Virus record (IMG/VR): IMGVR_UViG_3300017967_000177
Location: 1-26,128 of that record
Direction: 5' to 3' (one strand)
From: a virus
DNA: 26,128 bases
Made by a program: the position numbers and the translations under genes. Positions 1,671 to 25,785 of the stretch are shown piece by piece (the stretch's first letter is position 1; each line of letters opens with the position of its first letter). Below the pieces are notes generated by a model, which saw only the letters and a program-made list of their open reading frames with translations, ran no database searches and was not told the DNA's origin.

Positions 1671-2337
1671 TCGAACCGTACAGATCCTGAAGACGTTCGT
1701 TAATATCAATAAGTCTATCCAGTTTCGGAAGGGTAACGAAATTTCTACTCTGGCTATCCAGAAGAATGTTCTTGCTCGTGCTCCTGTTGAGGAAGATTTC
1801 CCCCAGGACTTTGCTATCTATGATCTTGGTGAGTTTGTACAGGTGCTTAACCTGTTTCAGGATGGTGAACTCACCTTCGATAGTCCAAGTTATGTGACTA
1901 TCTCTTCTGGTCGCAACCAGGCACGATACTTCTTTGCGGATCCTAGCATCATCACTGCTCCTCCCACTAAAGCACCTTCCCTTCCTAGTGTTGAGGTTGA
2001 GTTTGATCTCAGTCGCGATGATCTCCAGCGAGTTGTCCAGTCTATTAACATCTATAAGGTAGAAGATATTTCTATCGTAGGTGAGCCTGGTGGTCATGTG
2101 TCTATCGTTGTTCGTGACCGTAAGAATGATTCTTCCAATACCTATTCTGTAGATGTTGGTGAGGCAGACGCAAACTTCTGCTTCAATCTCAAGGCAGAGA
2201 ATCTAGTCGGTAAGGTTATTCCTGGCGACTACAAAGTCAAGATCAGCTCTAAGGGTGCTAGCACCTGGCGTTGTACCTCTGACAGTCTTGAGTACATGAT
2301 TGCTCTAGAGCCAGATTCTAAGTATGAGGCAGGTTGA
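1657..2337 (+). CDS. 45: DNA polymerase sliding clamp gp45
   Basis: The 226-residue product matches T4 gp45 (228 residues) along its length. The N-terminus MRLSNRTVQILKTFVNIN parallels T4 gp45. Further landmarks are DFAIYDLGEFVQVL (51-64), the YFFADPSI segment (95-102), and the C-terminal pattern GDYKVKISSKG followed by YMIALEPDSKYEAG. gp45 forms the trimeric ring that tethers gp43 to DNA and, in T4, also activates late transcription. The ATG at 1657 is chosen because the residues before it in the longer reading have no counterpart in T4 gp45. It overlaps the upstream DUF3310-like gene and, by 14 bases, the downstream oxygenase. The sequence is diverged but complete. Confidence 0.93.
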   Translation: MRLSNRTVQILKTFVNINKSIQFRKGNEISTLAIQKNVLARAPVEEDFPQDFAIYDLGEFVQVLNLFQDGELTFDSPSYVTISSGRNQARYFFADPSIITAPPTKAPSLPSVEVEFDLSRDDLQRVVQSINIYKVEDISIVGEPGGHVSIVVRDRKNDSSNTYSVDVGEADANFCFNLKAENLVGKVIPGDYKVKISSKGASTWRCTSDSLEYMIALEPDSKYEAG

Positions 2338-2923
2338 TATTGAAGTCATAGATGATTTTGTTTCTCCTTCTTATCTGAAGGAGTTACAAACTCTACTGAC
2401 AGGCACCGACTTCCATTGGCATTTTCAGAGTTCACAATCTCTGGACTATTCTTCTGAGAAGCTGGAAGACTTTGGGTTCTCACAGGGCATTGTCCCTCCC
2501 TGGGAACCCAATCGATTTTTAGATACAGGTTGTGCTTTCTTTATTGCTCCATTGATCTATCAGATCAAAGACAATCTACAGGCAGATAATATCATGCGCT
2601 GTAGATTAGACATGACCGTACTTCATAAACCACCATATCTTCACCCACCACACATTGACATTGGTGAAGATCATGTTGCTTGTATTGTGTACATCAATGA
2701 AACTGATGGTGACACCGTGATCTATGACAAGCAACTGACAAATATGGAACTGGCACAATGGAAGCTTGACATGACCTTGAACCTCCCCGATAATGTAGAG
2801 GTCAAGAGACGTATCTCACCCAAGCCAGGACGTGTGGTATTATTTAATGGAAGGTACGCCCACACTGGGCACTCTCCTAGCGAGCATCAGTCTCGCATCT
2901 TGATCAACTCTGTCTTTACTTGA
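2324..2923 (+). CDS. predicted Fe(II)/2-oxoglutarate oxygenase (prolyl-4-hydroxylase-like)
   Basis: A 199-residue protein with an Fe(II)/2OG dioxygenase core. The metal triad is visible as His110-x-Asp112 in HPPHIDIG and His180 in GRYAHTGH, and Arg191 is placed to bind 2-oxoglutarate. Between them lies a beta-rich stretch (ACIVYINETDGDTVIYD, 119-135) ending with KPGRVVLFNG, the usual strand before the distal histidine. The small size and spacing fit the prolyl-4-hydroxylase/AlkB-like fold class. Substrate unknown: protein side chain, nucleobase or small molecule are all possible. It lies between clamp (gp45) and clamp loader (gp44) genes, overlapping gp45 by 14 bases, so it is probably co-expressed with replication genes. 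It is one of nine such predicted enzymes in the window. Confidence 0.8.
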   Translation: MRQVDIEVIDDFVSPSYLKELQTLLTGTDFHWHFQSSQSLDYSSEKLEDFGFSQGIVPPWEPNRFLDTGCAFFIAPLIYQIKDNLQADNIMRCRLDMTVLHKPPYLHPPHIDIGEDHVACIVYINETDGDTVIYDKQLTNMELAQWKLDMTLNLPDNVEVKRRISPKPGRVVLFNGRYAHTGHSPSEHQSRILINSVFT

Positions 2924-2925
2924 TT

Positions 2926-3873
2926 ATGAGTGACTTTCTTTGGGTAGAAAAGTATCGCCCTAAGACTATTGATGAATGTATTCTTCCTGCTGAAACGAAG
3001 AGTACATTCAACTCCTTTGTTGCTAAAGGAGAATTGCCCAATCTTCTTCTGTCTGGCTCTGCTGGTATTGGTAAGACTACCATTGCTAAAGCATTGTGCG
3101 AAGAGTTGGGTCTAGACTATATTGTTATTAATGGATCTGATGAAGGACGATTTCTTGACACGGTACGGAACACCGCAAAGAGCTTTGCTTCGACCGTCTC
3201 ACTACTTGGTGCTGACAACAAGCACAAAGTCATCATTGTTGACGAAGCTGATAACACGACCCACGATGTACAACTCTGCCTACGGGCGTTTATTGAGGAG
3301 TTTCATCGCAACTGTCGATTCATCTTCACCTGTAACTACAAGAACAACATCATTCCAGCGCTCCATTCTCGCTGTACAGTCTTCGATTTCGCAATCAAAG
3401 GCAAAGCAAAAGCCAGTCTCGCAGCCCAATTCTTTAAGCGTGTCGGGACTATACTTGAGGGAGAGGGGATCTCGTATGATCCAGCAGTCGTGGCAGAGGT
3501 TATTCAGAAGCACTTCCCTGACTTCAGGAGAGTCCTCAATGAACTCCAGCGATACTCAGCGTCGGGATCCATCGACACTGGCATTCTGGCGTCGCTGAGT
3601 GAGGTACACATTGGTAACCTCGCTGCTTATCTAAAGGGCAAGCAGTTCAGCAAGGTTCGTCAATGGGTAGTTGATAACCTTGACAATGACGCAAACACTA
3701 TTCTGAGAACTCTTTATGACAACCTTTATCAAACGCTTGAGCCCGCTTCCATTCCTCAAGCAGTGCTCATCATCGGCAAGTACCAGTATCAGTCTGCTTT
3801 CGTTGCCGATCAAGAGATCAACCTTTTGGCAGCTCTGACGGAGATGATGTGTGAGTGTGATTTCAAAGCTTAG
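2926..3873 (+). CDS. 44: clamp loader large subunit gp44
   Basis: A 315-residue AAA+ ATPase matching T4 gp44 (319 residues). The N-terminus WVEKYRPKTIDECILP is the clamp-loader signature. Walker A is SGSAGIGKTT (43-52), Walker B is IIVDEAD (103-109), and the SRC motif with the arginine finger is at 148-150 (ALHSRC). gp44 forms a 4:1 complex with gp62 that opens the gp45 ring and loads it on primed DNA. The ATG at 2926 is preferred to an in-frame TTG at 2920, because the preceding gene stops at 2923 and the protein then begins MSDFLWVEKYRP. The end overlaps the GTG start of the next gene. Confidence 0.94.
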   Translation: MSDFLWVEKYRPKTIDECILPAETKSTFNSFVAKGELPNLLLSGSAGIGKTTIAKALCEELGLDYIVINGSDEGRFLDTVRNTAKSFASTVSLLGADNKHKVIIVDEADNTTHDVQLCLRAFIEEFHRNCRFIFTCNYKNNIIPALHSRCTVFDFAIKGKAKASLAAQFFKRVGTILEGEGISYDPAVVAEVIQKHFPDFRRVLNELQRYSASGSIDTGILASLSEVHIGNLAAYLKGKQFSKVRQWVVDNLDNDANTILRTLYDNLYQTLEPASIPQAVLIIGKYQYQSAFVADQEINLLAALTEMMCECDFKA

Positions 3874-4390
3874 GAATCCTCTTAGGGAGTCCTACCAAAC
3901 ATTCAAGGAACTTGTCAACGGACAAGAGTTTCCTTGGTATTATTACGAACATAGTGTAGAAGGGAAGAACGATGAGTTCGACAACGTTCCTTTCTACGGT
4001 CACACTATTCTGGCTAGACCTGGGTATGGAAACGCTTTGTACTCTACTCCCATGTCTCCTTATATAGAGTTAGCCAACCTTGTACTTTCTGACATCTTCG
4101 AGTATAATAATATCGATGTGAACGTAGTTCATAGGATCAATGTGAACTGTACTCATTGGTCAAGTGACCTCCCTTCCGTCCCACATGTTGATCATGATTT
4201 CCCACACAAGAATCTAGTCATTTATCTTAGCGGATTTGACTTTGGCGAAACTTGTCTGTGGAAAGATGGTAAATGTGTCTCCCGATATATACCAGTCGAA
4301 GATGGTATTATCACTTTTGAAGGACTACATAACATAGAACAACCAAGAGCTGGTTGTAGAAGAATTGTTTTAGTTGCTACTTATTCATGA
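3851..4390 (+). CDS. predicted Fe(II)/2-oxoglutarate oxygenase (small, divergent)
   Basis: A 179-residue protein. The metal triad is inferred from His112-x-Asp114 in PSVPHVDHDFPH and His160 in FEGLHNIEQPR, with Arg170 or Arg171 as the 2OG-binding basic residue before VLVATYS. The strand NLVIYLSGFDFGETCLW between them is the expected jelly-roll segment. Start choice: no ATG is available between an in-frame TGA near 3845 and the coding region, so GTG at 3851 (or GTG at 3857) must be used. It overlaps gp44 by 23 bases and the methylase gene by 4 bases (ATGA). Spacing matches phage 2OG oxygenases, but overall similarity to named families is low and the substrate is unknown. Confidence 0.65.
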   Translation: MSVISKLRNPLRESYQTFKELVNGQEFPWYYYEHSVEGKNDEFDNVPFYGHTILARPGYGNALYSTPMSPYIELANLVLSDIFEYNNIDVNVVHRINVNCTHWSSDLPSVPHVDHDFPHKNLVIYLSGFDFGETCLWKDGKCVSRYIPVEDGIITFEGLHNIEQPRAGCRRIVLVATYS

Positions 4391-5247
4391 AATCTTTGAA
4401 GACGCCATTGCGATACCCTGGGGGAAAGTCCAGAGCAGTTCCTAAACTGTTTGAATATCTTCCTAAGGAAATTAGCGAGTATCGAGAGCCATTCCTAGGT
4501 GGTGGTTCTATGGCGATTGCTATTACTAAAGCGTATCCAGATGTCCCTATCTGGGTGAATGATCTTTACGAACCTCTGTATAACTTCTGGGTAAATCTTC
4601 GTGAGTTCGGTACCAGCATGACTGAAGAACTCAGGTCGTTGAAGAAAGAAAACCAGAACACAGAGACTGCTCGTGCCCTCTTCGATTTTTGTAAGGTACA
4701 GGTCAATGATAAGGATGTTGATCCTCTCCAGCGTGCTGTGGCTTTCTATGTTGTTAATAAGTGTTCGTTTAGTGGACTCACTGAATCGAGTAGTTTCTCA
4801 GGACAGGCTTCAAACAACAACTTCACCATGAGAGGTATTGAAAAACTTCCTGAGTACAGCGATCTTATTGCTGACTGGAAGATTACTAATCTTTCTTATG
4901 AAGAAGTAGTTGCTGATTGTACTCACAAGACACCTATCGGTTCTGTGAACGAGACTGCTTTCATTTATGTTGATCCTCCGTATAACATCAAAGATGTTTT
5001 GTATGGAAAGAAGGGCAACATGCATAAAGGATTTGATCATGCTAAGTTCGCTGATACCATGGACTCGGTTCTTAGTAATGTGATGATCTCATATAACAAC
5101 CACCCAGATATCCAACAGAGATTTGATGAGTGGCATCAGTATGACTGGGATCATACTTATACGATGCGATCTACTGGAGACTACATGAAGAACCAGCAAG
5201 AGCGTCGTGAACTTCTTTTGACGAATTATGGATGGTGTGTTGACTGA
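4387..5247 (+). CDS. dam: Dam-type DNA adenine N6-methyltransferase (D12 class)
   Basis: A 286-residue protein with the D12-class (alpha group) adenine methyltransferase layout. The N-terminal LRYPGGKSR (8-16) and EPFLGGGS (34-41) form the S-adenosylmethionine pocket; VNDLYEPLYNFW (57-68) is the acidic ribose-binding loop; VDPPYN (195-200) holds the catalytic DPPY motif. Length is typical for Dam. The usual target of close relatives is GATC, but specificity cannot be proved here. No restriction partner is apparent next to it, so this looks like an orphan phage methylase. Possible roles are protection from host restriction or marking of phage DNA. It overlaps the upstream oxygenase (ATGA) and the downstream small ORF (TGATG). 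Confidence 0.92.
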   Translation: MKSLKTPLRYPGGKSRAVPKLFEYLPKEISEYREPFLGGGSMAIAITKAYPDVPIWVNDLYEPLYNFWVNLREFGTSMTEELRSLKKENQNTETARALFDFCKVQVNDKDVDPLQRAVAFYVVNKCSFSGLTESSSFSGQASNNNFTMRGIEKLPEYSDLIADWKITNLSYEEVVADCTHKTPIGSVNETAFIYVDPPYNIKDVLYGKKGNMHKGFDHAKFADTMDSVLSNVMISYNNHPDIQQRFDEWHQYDWDHTYTMRSTGDYMKNQQERRELLLTNYGWCVD

Positions 5248-5459
5248 TGGGTGGAAGTTTAGGTGTACGGGTAAAGAATGGCTATTGCTCTCTCTATCAC
5301 ACGAAGAGAGGAGTTCTCAGTACCTTCTGCCCCAATTCGCAATCCGCCATCATCAATGGCGATGAGATCCATGTCACCCTGAACAGTGGCAGCATTGCGA
5401 TCTATGAAATTAATTCTAATGGGACAGGTGTCCGTGGACCTGTCAAAATTATCACATGA
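5247..5459 (+). CDS. small conserved-looking hypothetical protein, 70 residues
   Basis: Not recognised. Its ATG overlaps the methylase stop in a TGATG junction, and its own stop overlaps the next ATG (ATGA), supporting a real, coupled gene. The product is beta-rich and glycine-rich with alternating hydrophobic residues (for example GDEIHVTLNSGSIAIYEIN, 38-56), suggesting a small beta-barrel or sandwich. There are no membrane segments, signal peptide or catalytic motif. Its place between a methylase and an oxygenase gives no firm clue to function. Confidence 0.6.
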   Translation: MGGSLGVRVKNGYCSLYHTKRGVLSTFCPNSQSAIINGDEIHVTLNSGSIAIYEINSNGTGVRGPVKIIT

Positions 5460-6055
5460 AGTATGTCAACATCAGTTCGCCAATCTTATATAAGGATCGC
5501 TTTGAATTTGACGAGCGCTATGTTGAAAAAGCCGACGAGCTATTCCGACTGGTTACCAAGTACAGCGTTGATACACCTGTAGAGAAGGGTGGATCATCCA
5601 CAGCAAATCTCTATGGGATTAAGGAGCATCGTCTTCCACATACGGATCCTCTCTTTAATCCATTTCTTTATTGGTTGGATGAGAAACTTGCTTACCTGAA
5701 AAAGGTATGGAAGTATGAAAATTCTTTCCCCCACTTTATTTCTAATAGTTGGTTCAACGAACACTTCAGAGGAGACTGGACTGACGAACATGCTCACGGT
5801 CCTTGTATTGTCTGTACGGCATACGTACGCAAGCCAGAAGACTCTGGGAACCTATTGGTAAGAGATCCACTCACTGAGGTTAGAACCAGTGAACCCATGG
5901 ACATACAACCATGGAGACTAATCCCTGTGGAGCAGGGAGACGTTGTTTTCTTTCCTGGGTGGCTGAGACATAAGACAGAACCAAGTCAATCAGACACCAG
6001 ACGTTTGACATTAACTTTGAATATCACACCTAATTATGAGTGCGGAACTTTCTGA
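5456..6055 (+). CDS. predicted Fe(II)/2-oxoglutarate oxygenase (TIGR02466-like)
   Basis: A 199-residue protein of the TIGR02466-like group of putative 2OG-Fe(II) oxygenases common in marine phages. The metal site reads His112-x-His114 (DEHAHGP) rather than the standard H-x-D/E, followed by the strand CIVCTAYVRKP, a GNLLVRDPL turn, GDVVFFPGWLRH with distal His172, and Arg182 or Arg183. In this group H-x-H is the usual arrangement, so it need not mean loss of activity, although some H-x-H proteins in the superfamily may be halogenase-like or inactive. It begins in an ATGA overlap with the small upstream ORF and overlaps gp62 by 20 bases. Substrate unknown. Confidence 0.75.
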   Translation: MKYVNISSPILYKDRFEFDERYVEKADELFRLVTKYSVDTPVEKGGSSTANLYGIKEHRLPHTDPLFNPFLYWLDEKLAYLKKVWKYENSFPHFISNSWFNEHFRGDWTDEHAHGPCIVCTAYVRKPEDSGNLLVRDPLTEVRTSEPMDIQPWRLIPVEQGDVVFFPGWLRHKTEPSQSDTRRLTLTLNITPNYECGTF

Positions 6056-6859: not shown

Positions 6860-6865
6860 TAAATA
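6858..6865 (+). promoter_or_regulatory. possible T4-type late promoter GATAAATA
   Basis: GATAAATA overlaps the regA stop codon and matches the NATAAATA late promoter box of T4-like phages. A strong terminator lies about 50 bases downstream, before hsp20, so any transcript from here would be short unless it reads through. Only the motif and its intergenic position support it. Confidence 0.35.
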
Positions 6866-6944: not shown

Positions 6945-6958
6945 ATAAGTTTTGACTA

Positions 6959-8562: not shown

Positions 8563-11060
8563 GTTTTTATACGAACGTACAACTGGTCGGTGATGACCTT
8601 CTCTATCTTGGATATCAAGAGGGACCTGGCGGTCTGCTTGAGCGTATCCAAAGACGGATGAAGTTCTCTCCGACTTTGTTTGTTTGTACCGATAAGAAGA
8701 CGAACTACAAGACTCTGGATGGCAGGTATGCTAAGCCTGTCAAGTTCGAGTCTGTCCGAGAGGCACGAGGATTCGTTGACAAGTATAAGGATGTAGATGG
8801 GTTTGATGTCCATGGATATGACCGTTACCTCTATCAATATATCTCCGAGGAATTTCCAGGAGAAGTGGACTACGATCTTAAAACTCTTAAGATTACGTCT
8901 CTTGATATTGAAGTTGCGTGTGAAAATGGTTTCCCTAACGTGCGTGAGTGCGCTGAACCTCTTCTGTCGATCACAGTCCAGGATTACACTAGCAAACTCA
9001 TTAAAGTATGGGGAACTAAGCCCTACCATACGGATCGCAAAGATGTGGAGTATATCCTTTGCGACGGTGAAGAACATCTTCTCCGTTCTTTCCTGGCTTA
9101 TTGGCAGACTTCATTCCCAGATGTTCTTACAGGGTGGAATGTCGAGCTGTATGATGTGCCTTACATTTGTGGACGTTTGGAACGTCTGTTTGGGGAAAAG
9201 GAGATGAAGCAGATCTCCCCTTGGGGTATTGTCCACAGGGAGGAGATGGAGATCAAAGGTCGTCAGCAGATCTTGTACAACATGTACGGCATTAACGTGC
9301 TGGACTATCTTGATCTGTATAAGAAGTTCACTTATACAAACCAAGAATCTTATCGCCTTGACCACATTGCCTTTGTGGAACTTGGGCAGAATAAGTTGGA
9401 TCACAGTGAGTTCGAGAACTTCAAGGAGTTCTACACTCGTGACTGGCAGAAGTTCATCGACTACAACATCAAGGACGTGGAGCTTGTTCTACGCCTTGAG
9501 GAAAAGATGAAGTTGGTTGAGCTTGCCATCGCCTTGGCTTATGACGCCAAGGTGAATATGAAAGATGTGTACTATCAGGTACGCATGTGGGATACTCTTA
9601 TCTACAATTATTTGAGGGACAAGAACCTCGTAGTTCCCCCTGCGAAACGTAGTTCAAAAAATGAGAAGTATGCTGGTGCGTATGTTAAAGAGCCTGTTCC
9701 TGGGAGATACGAGTGGGTCGTCTCATTTGACCTCAACTCGCTATATCCTCACCTCATCATGCAATACAACATCTCGCCAGAGACGTTGGTTGCTCAAAAG
9801 CATCCATACGCAACCGTAGATAAGTTGCTCAACCAAGCAGTTGAGCCTGACCCTAGGTATGCTTTGTGTGCTAATGGATCACAGTACCGTAAGGACATCC
9901 ATGGTTTCCTGCCTCAGATGATGCAGAAGATCTACAATGAACGTGTTCAAAGCAAGAAGTTAATGCTTGCTGCCAAGCAGGAGTATGAGAAGAATCCTTC
10001 TAAGGAAATCGAGAAGGCAATCAGTAAGTACAACAACATCCAGATGGCTCGTAAGATCCAACTGAACAGTGCTTATGGTGCCATCGGTAACCAATACTTC
10101 CGCTACTATAACCTCGCTAACGCCGAGGCAATCACCTTGTCTGGTCAGGTGTCGATCCGCTGGATCGAAAACAAAATGAACCAGTACCTAAACAACTTAC
10201 TTAAAACGGAGAACCAGGACTATGTTATTGCCAGTGATACTGACAGCATTTATCTCTGTCTTGATGTACTCGTTAATCGCGTATTTGATGTACCGAATGT
10301 TCCTAAATCGCGCATCGTCAGCTTTCTCGATGCTGCCTGTAAGGATCAAATCGAACCCTTCATCACAAGATCATACGAAGAACTAGCCACATACGCTAAC
10401 GCTTATGATCAGAAGATGTTCATGAAGCGTGAGAACATTGCTGACCGTGGTATCTGGACTGCCAAGAAGCGATACATTCTCAACGTCTGGGACAGCGAGG
10501 GTGTACGCTATGCTGAACCCAAGCTTAAAATGATGGGTATCGAAGCAGTCAAGTCTTCTACACCTGCTCCCTGCCGTAAAGCAATTAAGGAAGCCCTGAC
10601 AATCATGATGTCAGGAAGTGAAGATGATCTGATATCTTACATAGATAGATTTAGGGATGAATTCGATTCGTTACCGCCCGAAGATATTGCGTTTCCGAGG
10701 TCGGTCAATGGAATATCCAAGTTCAAGGCGCAAGGTACCGTCTATTCAAAGGGCTGCCCTCTACATGTTCGTGGAGCGTTGCTTTATAATTTTCATGTCG
10801 GTCAGAAAGATCTAGAAAACAAGTACCCACTCATCCAAGAGGGTGAGAAAATTAAATATCTCTATCTCAGGAAGCATAACAAGATTGGCGAAAACGTTAT
10901 CTCCTTCCTTAATACATTCCCAAGAGAACTGGGTCTAGAGAACGCCATTGATCGCACCACTCAGTTCCAAAAAGCCTTTCTCGATCCTTTACAGATCATC
11001 ACCGACGTGATAGGATGGGAGACTGAGAAAGTATCCAACCTAGAATTTTTATTCGCATGA
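8559..11060 (+). CDS. 43: family B DNA polymerase gp43
   Basis: An 833-residue replicative polymerase of T4 gp43 type (T4: 898 residues). The 3'-5' exonuclease domain begins with Exo [13 protein letters not shown] (115-126, Asp116 and Glu118). Later exonuclease motifs include the [13 protein letters not shown] region (191-203) and [10 protein letters not shown] (301-310). Polymerase motif A is [12 protein letters not shown] (389-400, catalytic Asp391), motif [17 protein letters not shown] (499-514) and motif C ASDTDSIY (558-565, Asp560 and Asp562). The C-terminal NLEFLFA is a short hydrophobic tail like the one by which T4 gp43 binds the gp45 clamp. No intein, frameshift or split is seen, although gp43 is split or invaded in some T4 relatives. 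It overlaps uvsX by 4 bases. Confidence 0.96.
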
Positions 11061-12073
11061 GTTTTCTACATGATGTTGTCAAGGAAATTGACAATGATTA
11101 CGCAGGTCTCCTCTCCGAAGGATCTGTGGGTGATATCGGAGGGTATATTGACTCTGGTTCTCATATCTTCAACGCCCTTGTTAGCGGCAGTATTTTTGGT
11201 GGCATTCCCTCAAACAAAATTACCGCAATCGCGGGAGAATCTTCGACAGGTAAGACATTCTTCTGCCTGGGTATGGTATCAAGCTTCCTCTCTTCAAACC
11301 CTGAGGCAGGAGTTGTCTACTTTGAAAGCGAATCGGCAATCTCAAAGACCATGATTGAAGAGAGAGGTATCGATTCCTCTCGTATGATCCTGGTTCCTGT
11401 GACTACGGTACAGGAGTTCCGTACACAAGCCATCAGGATCCTTGATAAGTATATGGAACAGAAGGAAGACGATCGCAAACCTCTGATGTTTGTGCTTGAC
11501 TCCCTGGGTATGCTCTCTACCACTAAGGAGATTGAAGACTCTGAGGCAGGTAAGGAGACTCGTGACATGACACGAGCACAGGTTACTAAGTCCATCTTCC
11601 GTATCCTCACCCTTAAGTTGGGTAAGGCGAATGTTCCTATGATCGTGACCAACCACACCTATGATGTGGTGGGTGCCTATGTGCCAACCAAAGAAATGGG
11701 CGGTGGTAGTGGACTGAAGTACGCAGCATCGACTATCATATATTTGTCCAAGTCGAAGGAACGCGATGGCAAAGAGGTGGTGGGTAACATCATCAAAGCA
11801 ACAGCAGCAAAGTCTCGTCTTACTAGAGAAAATGCTAGAGTAGAAACGAGGTTGTTCTATGATTCACGGGGACTTGACAAGTATTACGGCTTACTGGAAC
11901 TGGGTGAGAAGTACGGAGTATTCCAGCGCAAGGGCAATCGCATCCTTGTTGGGGAATCTTCCGTTTATCCTTCTGTTATTCTTGGTGATCCAGAGAAGTA
12001 TTTCACGCCCGAAGTAATGGAACAGCTTGATTGGGCTGCTGGTCAAGAATTTAAGTATGGTTCTGAAAAATGA
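11057..12073 (+). CDS. uvsX: RecA-like recombinase UvsX
   Basis: A 338-residue RecA/UvsX-family strand-exchange ATPase (T4 UvsX: 391 residues). Landmarks are [17 protein letters not shown] (44-60), Walker A GESSTGKT (60-67), catalytic Glu in VVYFESESA (87-94), Walker [10 protein letters not shown] (143-151) and the DNA-binding loop 2 region with [12 protein letters not shown] (214-225). It coats single-stranded DNA and drives strand invasion for recombination-dependent replication and repair. It starts in an ATGA overlap with gp43 and ends in an ATGA overlap with a 2OG oxygenase gene, giving the T4-like order polymerase, recombinase, helicase with one insertion. Confidence 0.95.
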
Positions 12074-12690
12074 AAGTAGATTTGTTTCCCACTAGCGTCT
12101 ATCGCTACCATGTAGAAGAACCTGAAGCACTTAAGCAACGGGTAATCGAATTCTACAATGAGAATAAATTCAAAGATGAGAATCTAACTCCTCAAGATTG
12201 GAATTGCCAACTCTTTACCACCTTTGGTAGTGGATACTTTCCTATCTCTGAGGCAATCGAAGCCTTCTCTCCCCACTTTGATGAGTTCCAAGAAGAGACG
12301 AAAAATTATGGTAATGTAATTCTCACTGACCTTTGGCTCAACTGCTATGAATCTACAAACTGGCAGGAAAAACACACCCATTCCCCTGGTCAATGGTCTG
12401 CTGTATACTATGCGGTGTTTGATCCTAACGAACACCGTGGCACAAAGTTCTTAGATCCCAATGAGCATGTCCGTGCTGCTAATGGTTTCAAAGAAAACGC
12501 AGCGGAACCATGGGTACAAGAAGGTGACTTGATTATCTTCCCCTCTTATCTTGAGCATTCTGCTCCTCTGAACAAGTCTAGTAAGCTTCGTTCTACTATT
12601 TCATTTAACTTCTTTGTGGAGCAAGAGATCTATGAAGGTGGAGACACTGATTTTGAAAAACTTGTTGTTGGACCAGGAGTATCTACGTAA
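12070..12690 (+). CDS. predicted Fe(II)/2-oxoglutarate oxygenase (TIGR02466-like)
   Basis: A 206-residue protein with the TIGR02466-type layout. The N-terminus [15 protein letters not shown] is shared with the oxygenase at 14812 (MIVNLFPTSIYKAEM), showing they are paralogs. Metal ligands read His102-x-His104 ([17 protein letters not shown]), distal His163 follows [13 protein letters not shown], and Arg174 is the likely 2OG anchor. It is inserted between uvsX and gp41, and its last 59 bases overlap the gp41 start region in another frame. This is a long overlap, suggesting the oxygenase gene is an established resident rather than a recent insertion. Substrate unknown. Confidence 0.8.
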
Positions 12691-13996
12691 GACTCTTCCC
12701 TTCATCAAGCCTGAATACTTCTCGGAGAGCACTGAGAGAGTGCTCTTCGGAGTAATCGACAATTTCTACAAAAACTACACTGAAATCCCCGCAAAAGAAG
12801 CATTGACTATTGAGGTCCAGAACCTCAGGAACCTTACTGATGATCAGTTTAAGGGTATCAATGCTCTAATCGATTCTCTTGACGATGAGAAGTCTGATCA
12901 TAAGTGGATTATCGATACTACTGAAAAGTGGTGTAAAGAACGTGCTATATACTTAGCGCTAATGGAGTCTATCAAGATCGCTGATGGCAGCGATGAGAAG
13001 AAGACTCCTGATGCTATCCCACACATCCTCAGCGAGGCTCTTAGCGTCTCGTTTGACAACCACATTGGACACGATTACATAGACGATTATGAGGAAAGGT
13101 ACGATTCTTACCACAAAGTTGAATCTAAGATCCCCTTTGATATTGAACTCTTCAACAAAATTACGAAAGGTGGTCTCCCTAACAAGACTCTCAATGTCGC
13201 TCTTGCTGGTACAGGCGTCGGGAAATCTCTATTCATGTGCCACATGGCTAGCGCCTGTCTCATGCAGGGAAGGAACGTTCTCTACATCACTCTTGAAATG
13301 GCAGAGGAGAAAATTGCTGAGCGAATTGACGCAAACCTCCTCAACGTAAACATTCAGGACCTTACAACTCTTCCGAAGATGATGTATGAGAATAAGGTCA
13401 TAAATATTGCTAAGAAGACCCAAGGCAAACTGATCGTTAAAGAGTACCCTACTGCCTCTGCTCATGCTGGACACTTCCGTGCTCTCCTCAGCGATCTCAA
13501 TCTCAAAAAGTCTTTTAAGCCTGATATCATATTTGTGGATTATCTCAATATTTGTACCTCTTCGCGTTACAAAGGGGCTGCCAATATTAATTCCTATACA
13601 CTTGTTAAGTCTATTGCTGAGGAGCTTAGAGGTTTGGCTGTCGAAGCCGAGGTCCCTATCGTATCTGCCACCCAGACCACTCGTTCTGGTTATGGTAGCA
13701 GCGATGTTGAGCTTACTGACACTTCTGAATCCTTTGGTCTCCCTGCTACTGCTGATCTTATGTTTGCCCTTATTTCTACAGAAGAGCTTGAACAGGTTGG
13801 ACAAATTATGGTGAAGCAGTTGAAGAACCGATACAATGATCTTACGGTTAATAAGAGATTTGTCGTGGGCATTGACAGAGCAAAAATGAGACTGTATGAT
13901 TGTGAACAGTCGGCACAGCAAAACATTCTTGATTCAGGTCAAGAGGTTGTGTCTTTCTCCGATATGAAATCTAAGTTTGGGGAATTTCAATTTTGA
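12632..13996 (+). CDS. 41: replicative DNA helicase gp41 (DnaB-like)
   Basis: A 454-residue RecA-fold hexameric helicase of T4 gp41 type. The N-terminus [20 protein letters not shown] resembles T4 gp41 (MVEIILSHLIFDQAYF), which fixes the start at 12632 rather than an earlier in-frame position. Walker A is AGTGVGKS (192-199), the next helix is followed by NVLYITLEMAEEKIAERID, Walker B is PDIIFVDYLNIC (297-308), and the later Gln-containing motif reads VSATQTTRSGYG. It unwinds DNA 5'-3' ahead of the polymerase and recruits the gp61 primase, whose gene is not in this window. The start lies 59 bases inside the upstream oxygenase gene. Confidence 0.94.
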   Translation: MKVETLILKNLLLDQEYLRKTLPFIKPEYFSESTERVLFGVIDNFYKNYTEIPAKEALTIEVQNLRNLTDDQFKGINALIDSLDDEKSDHKWIIDTTEKWCKERAIYLALMESIKIADGSDEKKTPDAIPHILSEALSVSFDNHIGHDYIDDYEERYDSYHKVESKIPFDIELFNKITKGGLPNKTLNVALAGTGVGKSLFMCHMASACLMQGRNVLYITLEMAEEKIAERIDANLLNVNIQDLTTLPKMMYENKVINIAKKTQGKLIVKEYPTASAHAGHFRALLSDLNLKKSFKPDIIFVDYLNICTSSRYKGAANINSYTLVKSIAEELRGLAVEAEVPIVSATQTTRSGYGSSDVELTDTSESFGLPATADLMFALISTEELEQVGQIMVKQLKNRYNDLTVNKRFVVGIDRAKMRLYDCEQSAQQNILDSGQEVVSFSDMKSKFGEFQF

Positions 13997-20855: not shown

Positions 20856-20859
20856 ACTG

Positions 20860-21555
20860 ATGAGAAAAATTTGGTTTGAGGATGAGTTGGATTTCTTGTC
20901 CTCGTTTCGTAATTTGAAACAACATTATGAACTGATCATCCCTGAAGTCTTGGCTTTTGTTGAGGCAAACAAGTTCCTCTTTGAGGAATGGATTCTCGAC
21001 AAGTGGGTGGATGATCGTAACTTAGGTAGAGTACAACTCTGGGATGGCGCTTGGAGAGTCATTCCTTTTCCTATCAATGCGGTGGGTGCCACTGCTAACA
21101 TGGAAGACTTTGAACTTAGTGAGATGGTTACGTTCACTAAGTTATTCAATACAACCACAGAAAGATGTCGTGAAGTTCTCCCTATGATTACGGAGTCCTT
21201 CCTCAAGACATGCCCTAATACATACGAATTTCTGAAAGAGGATATAGATAATCAAGTGTTGAAAAGTGCGACGCTAAGCCGCATGTCCCCTGGCACAAAG
21301 ATCAATCCTCACAATGGTGACATCGATTCACTTAGACTACACTTTCCTGTTGTTACAGATCCTGGCGCATGGATCAAGGTACGTGCGAGACAGCGGACGT
21401 GGAATGTGGGTGACCTTTTCGCATTCCATGACAATGACAAACACTGGGCGCAACATAACGGCACCCATGATCGCCTCATTGTCATTTTTGATTATAGTCT
21501 CGAACAACTTAAAAGGAAATATAAATACGAACTTGTGAAGGACTATATAGATTAG
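20860..21555 (+). CDS. aspartyl/asparaginyl beta-hydroxylase-like 2OG oxygenase
   Basis: A 231-residue protein whose C-terminal half (about 135-215) matches the aspartyl/asparaginyl beta-hydroxylase (LpxO/AspH) fold. LSRMSPGTKINPHNGDID (139-156) carries the first metal histidine (His151) in the family's P-H-x-G context. RLHFPVV follows, then WNVGDLFAFHDNDKHWAQHN with the second histidine (His195) and Arg205 in DRLIVIFDY. This subfamily often uses only two histidines with no acidic metal ligand, so the absence of H-x-D is expected. The N-terminal 130 residues are not recognised. It sits five bases after a structural gene in the late region, so it might modify virion or host surface components; that is inference. 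Confidence 0.75.
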   Translation: MRKIWFEDELDFLSSFRNLKQHYELIIPEVLAFVEANKFLFEEWILDKWVDDRNLGRVQLWDGAWRVIPFPINAVGATANMEDFELSEMVTFTKLFNTTTERCREVLPMITESFLKTCPNTYEFLKEDIDNQVLKSATLSRMSPGTKINPHNGDIDSLRLHFPVVTDPGAWIKVRARQRTWNVGDLFAFHDNDKHWAQHNGTHDRLIVIFDYSLEQLKRKYKYELVKDYID

Positions 21556-21573
21556 TCTTTCTGGAGTCCTACT

Positions 21574-21747
21574 ATGTGGGCTGTACTTTTTCCTTTTGCT
21601 AAAGCCGTCGTACTGAAGGCTGTTGAGTCTGATAGCGCAAAGCGTTTGGTCGTAGAAGTTTTGAAGCGTATCGTTGCTCGCACAGACAATGATCTGGACG
21701 ATCTTGCCGTAGAGCATCTGGAACGCGCTCTGTTCCCTGAAGGTTAA
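21574..21747 (+). CDS. small hypothetical protein, 57 residues
   Basis: Not recognised. The ORF starts MWAVLFPFAKAVVLKAVESD and ends DLAVEHLERALFPEG. An amphipathic, mostly helical protein with a hydrophobic start; no clear transmembrane span. A CTGGAG ribosome-like site lies about 8 bases before the ATG. It fills the gap between the beta-hydroxylase gene and a hairpin, and codon choice resembles its neighbours, so it is probably a real gene. Confidence 0.6.
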   Translation: MWAVLFPFAKAVVLKAVESDSAKRLVVEVLKRIVARTDNDLDDLAVEHLERALFPEG

Positions 21748-21751
21748 TGCT

Positions 21752-21770
21752 GGGGGGCTTAAAGCCCCCT
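21752..21770 (+). terminator. G/C-rich hairpin without T-run, possible terminator
   Basis: GGGGGGCT (21752-21759) pairs with AGCCCCCT (21763-21770) around a three-base loop. No T-run follows; instead there is CAAATATAAATA, the late promoter of the next gene. It probably terminates or protects the upstream late transcript, but efficiency cannot be judged. Confidence 0.5.
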
Positions 21771-21774
21771 CAAA

Positions 21775-21782
21775 TATAAATA
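21775..21782 (+). promoter_or_regulatory. T4-type late promoter TATAAATA
   Basis: An exact TATAAATA, the T4 late promoter consensus, directly after the hairpin and 27 bases before the ATG of the Ig-domain gene. Position and sequence make this the clearest late promoter in the window. Confidence 0.82.
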
Positions 21783-21809
21783 ATAAAGAACACTGTCTGA
21801 GTTAAACAC

Positions 21810-22385
21810 ATGTCACTTTGGAGTAATACAGACGCCGCTGGATCAGTTCCCAAGTATTTCGTCTCGGGTGATGACGGCAGTGGCGCACAAATGATCTTTG
21901 TTTCCCAAGAGGAAGCACAACTGGCAGAGAACCGCGAGCGTGGTCTCGACTCTCCTGGTTGGTATAGATATTTCACATTTACTGATCAACACGGTAACAC
22001 TCGCCACAAGGCTGAGCTTCAAGTTGCCATGATGATCCCACAAGCAGCTGCTGGTGACCAGGCAGATGACGCCATCGCCGCAGATGTCAGCAACGTTATC
22101 ACTATCAGCGCACAGCCTGCTGCTGCTAGCGTTACTGCTCCTGCTACCGCTACCTTCACTGTTACCGCTTCGGTCACAACTGGTACTGGTACAATCGCTT
22201 ATCAGTGGCAGCGTAAGGCTGAAGGTGGTCGCTGGAATAACATCTCTGGTGCGACTTCTGCTTCCTACACCACACCTGCTACTACAGTGGCTGATAACAA
22301 TGGTGACATGTACCGTGTTAAACTCACCACCGACACTGGTGCTCGTGAGGTAACCTCTGATGCCGCTACTCTTACTGTTGCCTGA
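21810..22385 (+). CDS. Ig-like-domain virion protein, 191 residues
   Basis: The C-terminal half (about 97-190) is a bacterial/phage immunoglobulin-like domain. It starts ITISAQPAAASVTAPATATF, has the core AYQWQRKAEGGRWNNISGATS with the invariant Trp, and ends VTSDAATLTV, an arrangement shared with Hoc-like and tail-decorating Ig domains. The N-terminal 75 residues (SNTDAAGSVPKYFVSGDDGS, then SPGWYRYFTFTDQHGNTRHKAE) look like the virion-attachment part found in T4-like cyanophage proteins. Ig domains on phage surfaces are thought to give weak binding to carbohydrates or cells. The clear late promoter upstream supports a virion role. Confidence 0.78.
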   Translation: MSLWSNTDAAGSVPKYFVSGDDGSGAQMIFVSQEEAQLAENRERGLDSPGWYRYFTFTDQHGNTRHKAELQVAMMIPQAAAGDQADDAIAADVSNVITISAQPAAASVTAPATATFTVTASVTTGTGTIAYQWQRKAEGGRWNNISGATSASYTTPATTVADNNGDMYRVKLTTDTGAREVTSDAATLTVA

Positions 22386-22392
22386 TGATTGA

Positions 22393-22764
22393 ATGAAGTT
22401 CTCTGAGTTGAATGAAGAGAATTATATTCTCTTCGCTATCCAACATTATGACAATCCATCAGCAGTAACTAAGGATGATTTCTTAGAAGACTTGAGGCGT
22501 TTTAAGTATATAAAACGCCTCATCAATAAGTATCTTAAGAACGGCGATGTTAAATTACATCTATTGCTGAATCATATCATCCTCGTTTATAATGTGTTTG
22601 GTGAAGCCGCAGCTCCCCTTCTTTTTTACAAGATGGATAAGGAGTATTGGTCAATCATTAAGTCTATTATGATATTCTTAGACAGGTATCCTGAGAAGGA
22701 AACCGCTACGCTTAAGAGTATTCCAATCAACGAAAAAATTATACAGGAGTTGAGTAAGATATGA
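22393..22764 (+). CDS. conserved T4-like phage protein of unknown function, 123 residues
   Basis: A helical protein of a kind widespread in T4-like phages: MKFSELNEENYILFAIQHYD (1-20) and EDLRRFKYIKRLINKY (32-47), then LHLLLNHIILVYNVFG (55-70) and YWSIIKSIMIFLDRYP (84-99). I recognise the pattern but know of no assigned function. No membrane or catalytic motif is evident. It starts eight bases after the Ig-domain gene and overlaps the next gene by 4 bases (ATGA). Confidence 0.7.
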   Translation: MKFSELNEENYILFAIQHYDNPSAVTKDDFLEDLRRFKYIKRLINKYLKNGDVKLHLLLNHIILVYNVFGEAAAPLLFYKMDKEYWSIIKSIMIFLDRYPEKETATLKSIPINEKIIQELSKI

Positions 22765-23438
22765 TGGGGTCCGCTGGGATCACTAACGTTGGTCCAATCA
22801 ATACACCTGTCACTGGCACTGGTGCTATTGCTGGCTTCGATCCAATTATGTCTTGGAAGAAAGCAGCAAAGAGGAAAGCTGCTGGTAAGGCATGGGATAA
22901 GCGCAGGAACGATCCTTCATACATAGATGGTAGGTCTAAAGCTGCCCGCAAACTTGTTAAACGTCTCGCTAAACGAAAGAAAAAAATGTCAGAAGAATTC
23001 CTTCTAGAATCTGGAGAAGCCACCAAGCAAGCTTACAAGTTCATTTCTCAGCGCCGTAAGGTGCAGAAGAAACAAGAACGTGAGAAGCGTGCGGCTAACC
23101 GTAAGCAAGAGATCGGTACCATCGCTAGAGCGAAGGCATCTGACTATCAAAAGAAAGCAAAGGATCGTCAGAAGAAACTGTCCCAGAACCTTCAGAAGCA
23201 AAAGTCTGAATCGTTTGATGGTCTTACCTATCTGATGAGCTTGATTGAGCAAGTTCAGGACACCAACACCAACCCAGTAACCTATTTCTTCAATGATGAT
23301 AGCGAACTGGAACTGACTCAAGAAGCAGCAGCGTATGTCCTGATCAAGTTTAATGAACTGAGTGAAGAACACAAAGATGAATTCGTCAACACCCTCCCTG
23401 AATCAGCCACTTTCACCGAAGGGTTTATCGAAATCTGA
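22761..23438 (+). CDS. strongly basic protein of unknown function, 225 residues
   Basis: Not recognised. After a glycine/proline-rich start (TPVTGTGAIAGFDPIMSW) comes a Lys/Arg-rich region, about residues 33-150, with long charged helices such as KLVKRLAKRKKKMSEEF and RRKVQKKQEREKRAANRK, likely coiled coil or nucleic-acid binding. The last 65 residues are acidic and more globular (YLMSLIEQVQDTNTNPVTYF onward). Charge asymmetry and late position suggest a scaffold, internal head or DNA-condensing protein, but this is inference. Either ATG at 22761 or the ATG at 22764 could be the start. The 3' end overlaps the next oxygenase gene by 62 bases. Confidence 0.6.
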   Translation: MMGSAGITNVGPINTPVTGTGAIAGFDPIMSWKKAAKRKAAGKAWDKRRNDPSYIDGRSKAARKLVKRLAKRKKKMSEEFLLESGEATKQAYKFISQRRKVQKKQEREKRAANRKQEIGTIARAKASDYQKKAKDRQKKLSQNLQKQKSESFDGLTYLMSLIEQVQDTNTNPVTYFFNDDSELELTQEAAAYVLIKFNELSEEHKDEFVNTLPESATFTEGFIEI

Positions 23439-24087
23439 ACTCCAGTGTGGGTTCCATGATATCCTAAAGTTCAATCCTAGACTTCAACTCCTTGTGGATT
23501 CCTGGCGAGAGATCCATGAGGAGTTTGTTGCGTCTAGAGATAAGTTGGCAATGATCAACTGGGGTGCCATGGGGGACACGGACACTGGATACTTTGGTGA
23601 ACTTACCAAGGCAGAGCATGATGGATACTGGAAGAACATTCCTCTGTATGGTAGTGGTCATGAGTATAGTAAGACTTTGATCGATGCTCCTGGTCAGAAT
23701 AGAAATGATCTTGGGTTCGTGGCAGAGCATCAAAGTAACTGTGAGATGTTATCTAAATTAGTATCCACCGCTAGGAAAGCCAACTGCTATCGTAGAGTGG
23801 GAATCAATCTGCTGAATGCTGGTGAGCAAATTGCCAGGCATACTGATAATGATCCCAACCCTCCAGATGGATTGTTGATGCGTGTTCTGTGGGGATTGGA
23901 CGTACCTACAGATGGCAAAGCAATACTTGCCCTACATAATCCTATGACGGGTAAGTTAGAACACAAGCAGTTTAAGAACAACGAGTTTATATGCTTTTGG
24001 GGTTCTCAATACCATGCGGTGTATAATACTCTCAAGTCCCCTCGTTATGTTTTGGTTATAGATCATGAGATTCGGACGGATTTCTAA
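23377..24087 (+). CDS. predicted Fe(II)/2-oxoglutarate oxygenase (His-x-Asp, hydroxylase-like)
   Basis: A 236-residue protein with a clear 2OG core in its second half. Metal ligands are His155-x-Asp157 (ARHTDNDPNPPDG) and His213 (FWGSQYHAVYN), and Arg223 (KSPRYVLVIDHE) is placed to bind 2-oxoglutarate. The strand GLLMRVLWGLDVP and the NNEFICFW segment complete the barrel. The spacing resembles aspartyl/asparaginyl hydroxylase-like proteins with an intact acidic ligand. ATG 23377 is the best start; a GTG at 23362 is possible, and no start codon occurs later before the conserved region. Translation begins 62 bases inside the previous gene. It overlaps the next oxygenase gene by 23 bases. Substrate unknown. 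Confidence 0.75.
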   Translation: MNSSTPSLNQPLSPKGLSKSELQCGFHDILKFNPRLQLLVDSWREIHEEFVASRDKLAMINWGAMGDTDTGYFGELTKAEHDGYWKNIPLYGSGHEYSKTLIDAPGQNRNDLGFVAEHQSNCEMLSKLVSTARKANCYRRVGINLLNAGEQIARHTDNDPNPPDGLLMRVLWGLDVPTDGKAILALHNPMTGKLEHKQFKNNEFICFWGSQYHAVYNTLKSPRYVLVIDHEIRTDF

Positions 24088-24913
24088 TGTACTGACAGAA
24101 CAAGACTGTCATGCCATTACCGATAAAGTTAAAAAGATACATCCAGTTTGGTTGAACCGTAGTACATGTAAGCCTAAGGTTCCCTTCTACACTCTTGGTG
24201 CCACTACATATCTGGAAGGGTGTGAAGATATCAAGAAGTATCATAAGCACAAGAGTCTACTCAATCCTATTCTTAATAAGCACTTCAGATATCTGTACGA
24301 TATTGTCTGTGATCGACTGAGCATTGAGTTAGATGCTCCTGTGGTTGTAGACGATATGCTTGGATACCCTGGGTTTCATATCTTCGGACTCAAGCCTGGG
24401 GATACTGGTAATCCTGCGATGCTAAAGGCATTAGAGCAGCCACTTGCCAGCATTCATCTGGACATCCAATACAAAGAGCATGGACCGTATTGGAAAACAT
24501 ATGATGAAGTTGACTTCGAGAATCCTTTGTCATTCACTCTCGCAATTAAACTTCCAAAGACAGGTGGTGGTTTATACATCTGGGATTGGATGAAGTTTGA
24601 CGATGGTCTGATTAAAGATTTTAATTTCCAGGAAGAACGCGAGAAGGGAGATTGGATATCTAATCAGTTCATTGAGCATAGTAAAGAGAATATCAAAAAC
24701 AATCCAAACCTATGGGAGAATGACTCTGCTTCTTTCTATAAGCCAGATGGGAACCCTCTAGTTGAAATGTATCATGAGGGAAGCATGGTGTGGTTTACTG
24801 GGCATGTTTTACATCAGATTATCCCTGGGTATAATCTTGAGCCTGATGACATGAGAGTCACTCTTCAGGGTCATGGTGTAAAGTGTGATGGTACTTGGAG
24901 GATATACTTTTGA
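24065..24913 (+). CDS. predicted Fe(II)/2-oxoglutarate oxygenase, tandem paralog A
   Basis: A 282-residue protein whose order of motifs is repeated in the next gene. YPGFHIFGL (101-109), His131-x-Asp133 in ASIHLDIQ, the strand PLSFTLAIKLPKTGGGLYIWD (a beta-hairpin), WFTGHVLHQI with His250 and Arg264 in DMRVTLQGHGV give a complete predicted metal and 2OG site. The C-terminus GTWRIYF matches GKWKLFW in the paralog. It is larger than the other oxygenases because of an N-terminal helical domain (about 1-100) and a mid-barrel insert (about 178-235). Gene duplication next door suggests a paired function or two related substrates. No family-level substrate is known to me. Confidence 0.72.
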   Translation: MRFGRISNVLTEQDCHAITDKVKKIHPVWLNRSTCKPKVPFYTLGATTYLEGCEDIKKYHKHKSLLNPILNKHFRYLYDIVCDRLSIELDAPVVVDDMLGYPGFHIFGLKPGDTGNPAMLKALEQPLASIHLDIQYKEHGPYWKTYDEVDFENPLSFTLAIKLPKTGGGLYIWDWMKFDDGLIKDFNFQEEREKGDWISNQFIEHSKENIKNNPNLWENDSASFYKPDGNPLVEMYHEGSMVWFTGHVLHQIIPGYNLEPDDMRVTLQGHGVKCDGTWRIYF

Positions 24914-25785
24914 ACCTAGGTATTTTTAGAGTCTTAACCTTGGATGAGGTTGATACTGTTTATGCTGAAATCTTATCTCTCAAGAAGATTTGGAAACCCA
25001 GAACTAACTGGCATCCTACTAATGGTAATCTTGGTGATGAGGATCTAGAGAATTATATTCATTACTATACTCTTGGTACTACTCTCTACATGGATGCTTC
25101 TGACTATGGATGGAAGCATTACATGAAGTACAAGCATGTAACTAATCAGATTCTGATGAAGAAACTTGGTTGGTTGTATGATGAGTTTAAGTATGCTATC
25201 AGTGAAGCGTTGGGGGAAGAGTGTGAGTATGAAGGTGAACTTGCTTTGCCTGGGTTTCACATCTATAACTTCGATAGGAATCCTGATCCAAAGCATCATC
25301 ATCGCTGCTTACATATTGACGGTCAGTTTATGCACGCCCTCCCATGGCTTGCTAGAAAGTATGGTAAAGACATAGATGTACAAACACCCCTGTCGTATAC
25401 ATTCACCATCACAAGACCCTCTAGAGGGTCTGCTATCGCCTTCTGGGGACTTCCAGGTGACTTGAGTGCTAAGGCAGTGGAATTGAAAAAAAGTTATCCA
25501 CATCCTATAATTGATAGGTATGAGAACGTAGAGTATGTCAAAACAATTAGAGACCGTAGAGCCATCGAACAACCATGGAAGTACGAATTATTTGATGAGG
25601 ATCCTGGCGATCTGGGGTCTTACATCCCTCACGTCTTTCCTCACACTCCTGGGTATAGTTTCTTCTACACAGGAAAAATAATCCATCAAATGATTCTTGG
25701 TGATCAGTTTGAGGATGGTGATTCTCGCATCACATTCCAGGGTCATGGACTAAAAATTAATGGTAAGTGGAAATTGTTCTGGTGA
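24910..25785 (+). CDS. predicted Fe(II)/2-oxoglutarate oxygenase, tandem paralog B (TTG start)
   Basis: A 291-residue paralog of the preceding gene. Shared segments include YTLGTTLYMD against YTLGATTYLE, LALPGFHIYNF against GYPGFHIFGL, and YTGKIIHQM against FTGHVLHQI. Metal ligands are His135-x-Asp137 (RCLHIDGQ) and His259, with Arg273 in DSRITFQGHGL. The TTG at 24910 overlaps the previous stop (TTGA) and gives an N-terminus, MNLGIFRVLTLDEVD, that aligns with MRFGRISNVLTEQD of the paralog; an in-frame TTG at 24895 is less likely. An 18-bp perfect palindrome sits within the gene at 25414-25431. A late promoter follows its stop. Confidence 0.72.
   Translation: MNLGIFRVLTLDEVDTVYAEILSLKKIWKPRTNWHPTNGNLGDEDLENYIHYYTLGTTLYMDASDYGWKHYMKYKHVTNQILMKKLGWLYDEFKYAISEALGEECEYEGELALPGFHIYNFDRNPDPKHHHRCLHIDGQFMHALPWLARKYGKDIDVQTPLSYTFTITRPSRGSAIAFWGLPGDLSAKAVELKKSYPHPIIDRYENVEYVKTIRDRRAIEQPWKYELFDEDPGDLGSYIPHVFPHTPGYSFFYTGKIIHQMILGDQFEDGDSRITFQGHGLKINGKWKLFW

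Follow-up and report, generated by a model that had tools for sequence, protein, structure and literature searches.

The DNA analysed here, called the window below, is the linear IMG/VR virus fragment IMGVR_UViG_3300017967_000177 of 26,128 bases, and the subject of this report is a set of nine genes in it that encode iron(II)/2-oxoglutarate (2OG) oxygenase-type proteins. The gene order in the window is cobS, gp45, gp44, dam, gp62, regA, hsp20, gp43, uvsX, gp41, mazG, a cytidylyltransferase gene and a head protein gene, with others in addition, and P-HM2 is colinear with it between cobS (at 127-128 kb) and the gene preceding gp61 (152 kb). The window belongs to a marine T4-like cyanophage akin to Eurybiavirus (P-HM1, P-HM2 and MED4-213). 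Its host group is probably Prochlorococcus because the related record G015 (189,106 bases) contains, as an exact match, 16,849 bases of L265, a contig deposited under the name Prochlorococcus sp. AG-418-C09.

Nine oxygenase genes of four subfamilies

All nine open reading frames (ORFs) were present, all on the + strand, as a preliminary description of this DNA had stated. Its starts at 14812, 23377 and 24910, however, are internal to longer ORFs, which begin at 14788, 23362 and 24895, and either start is possible for these genes. Scans with Pfam, PHROG and NCBIfam profiles gave four groups, which are phrog_274 (2324 and 3851), PF13759 (5456, 12070 and 14788), PF05118 (20860 and 23362) and phrog_24927 (24065 and 24895). 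The genes are lettered A to I as follows.

2324..2923, +: oxygenase A, phrog_274 type (EGLN/prolyl 4-hydroxylase (P4H)-like), HxD..H..R, between gp45 and gp44; phrog_274 3e-38
3851..4390, +: oxygenase B, phrog_274 type, at the gp44|dam junction; phrog_274 5e-26
5456..6055, +: oxygenase C, PF13759, HxH..H..R, at the dam|gp62 junction; 48.4 bits
12070..12690, +: oxygenase D, PF13759, at the uvsX|gp41 junction; 58.7 bits
14788..15408 (alternative start 14812), +: oxygenase E, PF13759, after mazG; 47.6 bits; counterpart of PHM2_160
20860..21555, +: oxygenase F, AspH-type PF05118, H-x-G without acidic ligand; 77.6 bits; 'TlmH' of P-HM1/P-HM2
23362..24087 (alternative start 23377), +: oxygenase G, AspH-like PF05118, HxD; 46.2 bits; opens the late trio
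24065..24913, +: oxygenase H, WelO5-like, HxD; PF22814 23.1 bits, under the cut-off; phrog_24927 5e-71
24895..25785 (alternative start 24910), +: oxygenase I, WelO5-fold (AlphaFold2 model, Foldseek), HxD, paralogue of H

The curated Pfam cut-offs of PF13759 (27 bits) and PF05118 (22.6 bits) were reached by C, D and E and by F and G, respectively, with the scores listed. The scores were below the curated cut-offs for A with PF13640 (24.9 against 27 bits, B being without a match), for H with the WelO5 family PF22814 (cut-off 27 bits), for C, D and E with TIGR02466 (39.1, 57.8 and 34.8 bits against 62.5 in NCBIfam) and for F with the NCBIfam LpxO model (37.7 against 500 bits). Since the Pfam scan gave no match for B and I, these two proteins were modelled with AlphaFold2, and the double-stranded beta-helix fold is given by models for two of the nine and by profiles for the other seven. 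The model of B, with a predicted local distance difference test (pLDDT) of 80.5 and a predicted template modelling score (pTM) of 0.80, matched the folds of 6n1f (Z 14.0) and PHD2/EGLN1 (Z 13.1). The model of I (pLDDT 78.2, pTM 0.83) matched WelO5 (Foldseek 7e-9, Z 17.6, 223 residues aligned, 3.3 A), and the next family was an N-substituted amino acid dioxygenase at Z 12.4. Both are oxygenase folds, PHD2-like in B and WelO5-like in I.

The metal ligands and the 2OG-binding basic residue were found in 9/9 window proteins, in F as the AspH-type H-x-G. Ligand columns were inspected in the clusters with at least three members (283 hits overall). HxD..H..R was present in 27/27 sequences of the A cluster, 9/9 of the B cluster, 4/4 of the G cluster and 12/12 of the joint H and I cluster (H140, D142), and HxH..H..R in 8/8 of the C cluster. 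In the E cluster HxH was present in 13/13 and the distal His and Arg in 12/13, one row being gapped, and the F cluster had H-x-G..H..H..R, that is, no acidic ligand, in 8/8; F is 62-97% identical to seven relatives in the alignment. The H-x-H that the PF13759 genes have instead of H-x-D also occurs in the solved, uncharacterised relatives 3bvc and 2rg4 to which they were aligned. A loose motif expression is weak when used alone, as the motif also occurred in 281 of the 1128 ORFs of 150-300 residues that were not hits, compared to 257 of 280 hits. The profile matches exceed chance, since reversed ORFs gave 0 matches for each of the nine profiles. The nine genes encode proteins of Fe(II)/2OG oxygenase type, which belong to four subfamilies and have their active-site residues intact, and on both the number of genes in 26 kb and the four subtypes the preliminary description was right.

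Similarity among the nine could be detected only between H and I (about 1e-20, 28% identity) and between C and D (about 1e-6), and each of the nine has its own counterpart of at least 325 bits in the fragment G001. This agrees with the earlier argument that the subfamily mix speaks against a single recent amplification, which was rejected because the nine genes hardly resemble one another. Between the window and G001 the ratios of nonsynonymous to synonymous change (dN/dS) were 0.035-0.202 in the nine genes, the highest being C (0.202) and B (0.187), and 0.027-0.127 in eleven other genes; these are simple NG86 counts with dS up to 1.7.

Gene counts and junctions in related phages

The preliminary description had taken the density of these genes as a sign of a broad modification programme. 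This was not supported because equal counts are normal in relatives. The nearest contig, G001 (28 kb), has all nine in the same order and one more, which makes ten, and syn9 and S-WAM1 have nine per 26.1 kb, and unusual density was therefore rejected. In twelve named T4-like phages of marine origin, together with one phage contig that derives from a single Prochlorococcus cell, the oxygenase genes numbered 3-25 per record with a median of 13 in an iterated search with local profiles (E up to 1e-6; ORFs of at least 90 residues). In P-HM1, P-HM2, MED4-213 and G015 a second PF05118 gene was uncounted, so that the totals of these four and some of their 26 kb maxima below are low by at least 1.

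Record: oxygenase genes; maximum per 26,128 bases
G015: 17; 8
P-HM2: 10; 4
P-HM1: 10; 7
MED4-213: 9; 5
syn9: 12; 9
S-SSM4: 13; 5
RN05-S: 3; 2
S-MbCM6: 12; 8
S-SZBM1: 13; 6
ACG-2014b: 13; 8
P-SSM2: 25; 8
S-WAM1: 17; 9
pelagiphage HTVC008M: 19; 7

The protein-by-protein recheck covered the clusters of syn9 and S-WAM1, in which 18/18 proteins matched phrog_81, 274 or 61 with E up to 2e-4 (one only at 1.9e-4). T4 gave no phrog_274 or PF05118 match, and the fragments G002 and G003 have the late genes in the same order as the window. Numerous oxygenase genes, some of them between replication genes, are thus a habit of the whole group, of which the window is an example. The tenth gene of G001 lies upstream of cobS there and in G015 (L086 625-1254; L112 11678-12298), that is, before the window start. 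At the other end, L308 (1-9284) is identical to residues 147-296 of the I product and has two further oxygenase-type genes past the window end. In syn9 (L365), 554-8289 holds eight oxygenase-type genes in 7.7 kb, of which two are annotated 'DNA endonuclease V' and one, a 'minor coat protein' (phrog_1644), also has a weak phrog_274 match (1.9e-4).

Oxygenase genes recur at the same junctions across lineages, and often they come from different sequence clusters. The junction gp45|gp44 was occupied in 8/26 records, gp44|dam in 8/27, dam|gp62 in 10/33 and mazG|p455 in 11/22, and the junction uvsX|gp41, whose edges in the window are given below, had an oxygenase-fold gene of one subfamily or another in 57/60 records, which are related and unevenly sampled and are not 60 independent cases. 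RN05-S, P-SSM2 and HTVC008M were without one. The position of 2OG oxygenase genes near uvsX had already been noted (PMC2984593; this and the other papers are cited from parts of their text).

11057..12073, +: UvsX recombinase, phrog_97 7e-98, upstream edge of the conserved slot
12632..13996, +: gp41-like helicase, phrog_19 1e-137, downstream edge of the slot

The occupant of this slot is of PF13759 type (cluster c0) in the window lineage and of P4H type (cluster c1) in the Kyanoviridae examined, and some members of both clusters lie outside the slot. In hhalign comparisons c0 had probabilities of 99.7, 99.2 and 99.1% with other PF13759 clusters, 94.7% with cluster c2 and 62.2% (E 7.5e-5) with c1, and c1 was closest to c2 (97.5%); the occupants are therefore of one superfamily but are not simple orthologues. 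In c1, H-x-D/E...H...K was present in 37/37. The window gene D is intact (HxH..H..R), as are 26 of the 45 distinct c0 sequences, whereas 19/45 are degenerate. Among these 19 the first His is kept in 0, the second His in 1, the distal His in 4 (1 gapped) and the Arg in 17, two of the sequences being cut short; usually all three His are missing. Gene D reads C-x-T...Y...R in P-HM1 and P-HM2 and S-x-T...Y...R in MED4-213. The degenerate sequences form one clade (support 1.00, midpoint root), which is sister to the intact window lineage, and 17/19 lie in the uvsX|gp41 slot, the other two being at contig ends without gp41. In the 12 pairs shown from this clade dN/dS was 0.03-0.19 in close pairs and 0.21-0.47 in more diverged ones, and the gene is under purifying selection despite the loss of the metal site. 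Because the sister clade keeps the gene in place without a full metal site, the slot would not be only about catalysis. We infer a catalysis-independent role for D at least in the degenerate clade, and besides catalysis D probably serves in binding or in a structure.

The late trio, its bacterial homologues and other features

Genes G, H and I follow the head protein gene, which is preceded by a T4-type late promoter-like motif.

21775..21782, +: T4-type late promoter-like TATAAATA, 27 bases before the start of the head gene
21810..22385, +: head protein gene, located before G, H and I, phrog_613 'head protein' 1e-58

Late motifs of the TATAAATA type were found three times in the window compared to 0.79 expected, a count that 6/100 shuffles reach, and the other two (6227 and 21520) are not ahead of a gene start. 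In IMG/VR, H lies directly 5' of I in 32/35 contigs that have I, and the other three begin inside I. A G-type gene adjoins the H-I pair in 26/35, before it in 3 (the G001, G002 and G003 contigs, which are among the 35 again) and after it in 23. G itself gave no tblastn match at 1e-5 in the 50,697 phage records of INPHARED and no PDB sequence match at 0.01.

Bacterial homologues of H and I were collected as 41 loci from one pattern-based scan of genome contigs with flanks of up to 8 kb, and 39 were kept after removal of L265, which is contained exactly in phage G015, and of L266, a probable phage. H-x-D was seen in the printed rows in which the motif is visible. Local profiles found an AspH-like gene in 10/39 loci (L245, L247, L253, L260 on the other strand, L261, L262, L264, L274, L283 and L284), the lanthipeptide synthetase LanM in 6/39 (L245, L253, L257, L260, L261 and L284), GNAT in 7/39 and an NHLP-type leader peptide in 4/39. 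Pfam checks were made for AspH in L245, L260, L262 and L274, for LanM and GNAT in L245 and for the leader in L261. Two H/I copies are present in at least 9/39 loci, directly adjacent or overlapping in six, and L245, L247, L253, L262 and L274 have two copies together with an AspH-like gene. In the tree the phage pairs and the bacterial pairs are separate, and the pairing therefore appears to have arisen repeatedly; this in turn suggests that the two copies work together. It has been described that 2OG oxygenases, SmaO and SmaX being named, act as hydroxylases on ribosomal peptides, among them a cascade of two enzymes that acts on aspartate (PMC13097080, in part); these enzymes support only the plausibility of such a role for the trio.

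In five of the loci (L249, L271, L275, L276 and L280), from Alcaligenaceae-type metagenome-assembled genomes and a cyanobacterium, the WelO5-like gene stands beside a PF13759-type gene found with local profiles, so that different oxygenase families are paired in bacteria too. In five Nostocaceae loci (L285 at 6516-8189, L254, L256, L269 and L278) an ATP-grasp (RimK-like) half is fused to a WelO5-like oxygenase half; one fusion was Pfam-checked, the N-terminal halves are 70-90% identical, and a conserved gene of 138-147 residues is nearby in 4/5. A peptide-modification cluster is possible at these loci.

Elsewhere in the window, 7495-7532 holds a perfect sigma-70-type match (TTGACA-17-TATAAT) that lies within and immediately past a 12-pair GC-rich terminator-like hairpin, and a second 12/12 match lies at 14169-14198 before mazG. 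A sigma-70 scan of 6500-26128 gave 26 sites, fewer than the 36.1 in shuffles. The RegA homologue at 6410-6595 has an in-frame stop at 61 residues with RegA-like sequence going on in the same frame, while other RegA homologues, 26 among the matches listed, have 139-149 residues; the early stop may reflect either a true truncation or a misassembly. The Rfam scan and the tRNA search of the window found nothing.

Possible functions and comparison with known systems

The explanation that we prefer, with a probability of about 0.5, is that most of the nine are protein or peptide side-chain hydroxylases, that the late trio oxidises one ribosomal substrate and that D is partly structural. In such enzymes Fe(II) would be held by H-x-D/H...H and 2OG by the Arg, and the resulting oxo-iron species would put oxygen into a C-H bond. 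The five oxygenases among the replication genes would be made together with those genes, whereas G, H and I probably act late because they lie behind the head gene with its late-type promoter. The AspH-like G and the paired WelO5-type H and I may then oxidise residues of one ribosomally made substrate, and bacterial counterparts near lanthipeptide synthetases appear to be placed for the same oxidation role. D at uvsX|gp41 would have a binding or structural role besides. Side-chain hydroxylation is thus the preferred function, and it is a predicted one.

Several observations weigh against this explanation. A shared fold shows no function, and none of the nine has a known substrate. Late expression is read from one motif of eight bases, and in the tree the H/I pairs of phages and of bacteria do not form a single orthologous pair. 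No AspH-like gene was seen in 29/39 of the bacterial loci and no LanM in 33/39, many loci being shortened by contig ends and the 8 kb flanks, and L264 has a non-ribosomal peptide synthetase, so that not every setting is ribosomal. The bacterial AspH profile matched F (1.6e-14) far better than the G of the window (0.083), the G of G002 matching at 1.4e-4, and otherwise G was related to bacterial AspH only in a profile-profile comparison (94.8%). LANC_like gave 0/6 matches in the phage records searched (window, G001, G015, P-HM1, P-HM2 and MED4-213), although the control matched; the window and G001 are fragments. DUF4135 and NHase_alpha (leader-type precursor) also gave 0/6, but here the control searches gave no match either. 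As for D, a second oxygenase-type gene stands beside the degenerate one in 3/17 slots (G011, L037 and L046) and could carry the catalysis; it is intact in L046, and H-x-H...H...R is visible in G011 and L037.

A more specific form of the proposal, in which the late trio is a phage-borne version of a bacterial peptide-tailoring cassette, whose AspH-like enzyme and two cooperating WelO5-type hydroxylases would oxidise a ribosomal substrate such as a head protein in successive steps, and, separately, the uvsX|gp41 fold is an iron-dispensable binding module for recombination or replication, is doubtful, and the missing LANC_like in the six phage records lowered its standing slightly. Unlikely as well is that the genes are accessory cargo gathering in variable T4-like junctions with a weak lineage-specific benefit and no programme. 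The wide range of counts per genome, and the occupation of gp45|gp44, gp44|dam and dam|gp62 in the fractions given above by several clusters, would agree with it, but the low dN/dS, the invariant ligands in most clusters and the nearly always filled uvsX|gp41 slot do not. The adjacency to gp45, gp44, uvsX and gp41 could also be taken to mean that the proteins serve replication by repairing DNA in the manner of AlkB or by modifying DNA bases, which is the reading of the uvsX-linked genes in the literature, where AlkB or repair was suggested for Syn9 genes beside UvsX and UvsY (PMC2984593, in part). However, the Pfam scan, read up to an E of 1, gave neither an AlkB-type nor a TET/JBP-type family for any of the nine, AlkBH members come at lower Z in the fold lists of I and B (in I, AlkBH3 at Z 11.8 against 17.6 for WelO5), and a whole clade of the uvsX|gp41 gene lost its metal ligands. 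This is quite unlikely, and phage DNA, one of the targets named in the preliminary description, received no specific support.

Modification of host envelope lipids in the manner of LpxO or OlsC, changing the surface of the infected cell, is suggested by the matches of F to the NCBIfam models LpxO (1.2e-9) and OlsC (4e-6), but the LpxO score is far below its curated cut-off and a lipid substrate fits one of the nine genes, which makes it very unlikely as a general explanation. It was proposed in 2010, from multiple 2OG genes and NtcA sites, that such genes act mainly via 2OG itself, by drawing it down or feeding NtcA control (PMC3037559, in part). Here NtcA core palindromes were at chance (4 found compared to 4.07 expected) and enrichment was rejected; in addition, conserved yet different active-site types suggest distinct substrates, and no 2OG consumption is expected of a member that lacks metal ligands, so that we consider this proposal highly improbable. 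For the preferred explanation, side-chain hydroxylation, the bacterial relatives of the late trio, which lie partly in peptide-modification clusters, name the substrate class to look for. The D clade, which includes the cultured P-HM1, P-HM2 and MED4-213, lost the metal site and kept its place, and this gives a testable split of catalysis and structure.

Reports of multiple cyanophage oxygenases go back at least to 2010 (PMC3037559), and the published sets of T4-like cyanophages likewise consist of several low-identity genes per genome, of the TIGR02466, PF13759 and PF13640 types (PMC3037559, PMC9964418). In 2010 the published counts reached five per genome, PhyH-like proteins being listed separately (PMC3037559), and according to PMC9964418 S-CREM1 has ten and S-SCSM1 24; these figures compare with 3-25 in the 13 records here, and two AspH-type genes were described in P-HM1/P-HM2 (PMC3037559). 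In the consulted parts of PMC3037559, PMC2984593, PMC13097080 and PMC9964418 no substrate is assigned to cyanophage oxygenases, and neither the ligand-poor uvsX|gp41 oxygenase nor the phage trio of AspH and WelO5 types is described; these are open-licence papers, and absence from print is not shown by them. What is unusual in the window is the late trio that resembles bacterial peptide-tailoring clusters and a gene that is kept in place after loss of the metal site in relatives.

In cyanophage records the family phrog_274 bears the label 'DNA endonuclease V/denV', and members in syn9, S-WAM1 and P-SSM2 carry this name. T4 has a genuine denV (PMC2984593), and two papers of 2010 disagree on whether cyanophages have it (PMC3037559, PMC2984593). 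The best solved relatives of the phrog_274 alignment were EGLN1/PHD2 (3e-5) and P4H (0.003), and in fold matches the identity to such relatives is about 15-20%. Both EGLN1/PHD2 and P4H are protein prolyl hydroxylases. With these relatives and 0 matches in T4, endonuclease V was rejected for phrog_274, which has only the label in common with T4 DenV; the label is very probably wrong, and the data indicate that it should be dropped. Compared to human AspH and LpxO (PF05118), F has the AspH arrangement, H-x-G with the distal H..R, and misses the LpxO cut-off, whereas G has H-x-D. The closest fold to I is that of the small-molecule halogenase WelO5 (PF22814), in which a glycine takes the place of the acidic ligand and makes a halogenase site; the top Foldseek match is titled a G166D variant of WelO5. 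Unlike WelO5, the phage pair, of which H is below the Pfam cut-off, has H-x-D in all 12 sequences, a hydroxylase-type site, for which reason halogenase activity of H and I was rejected.

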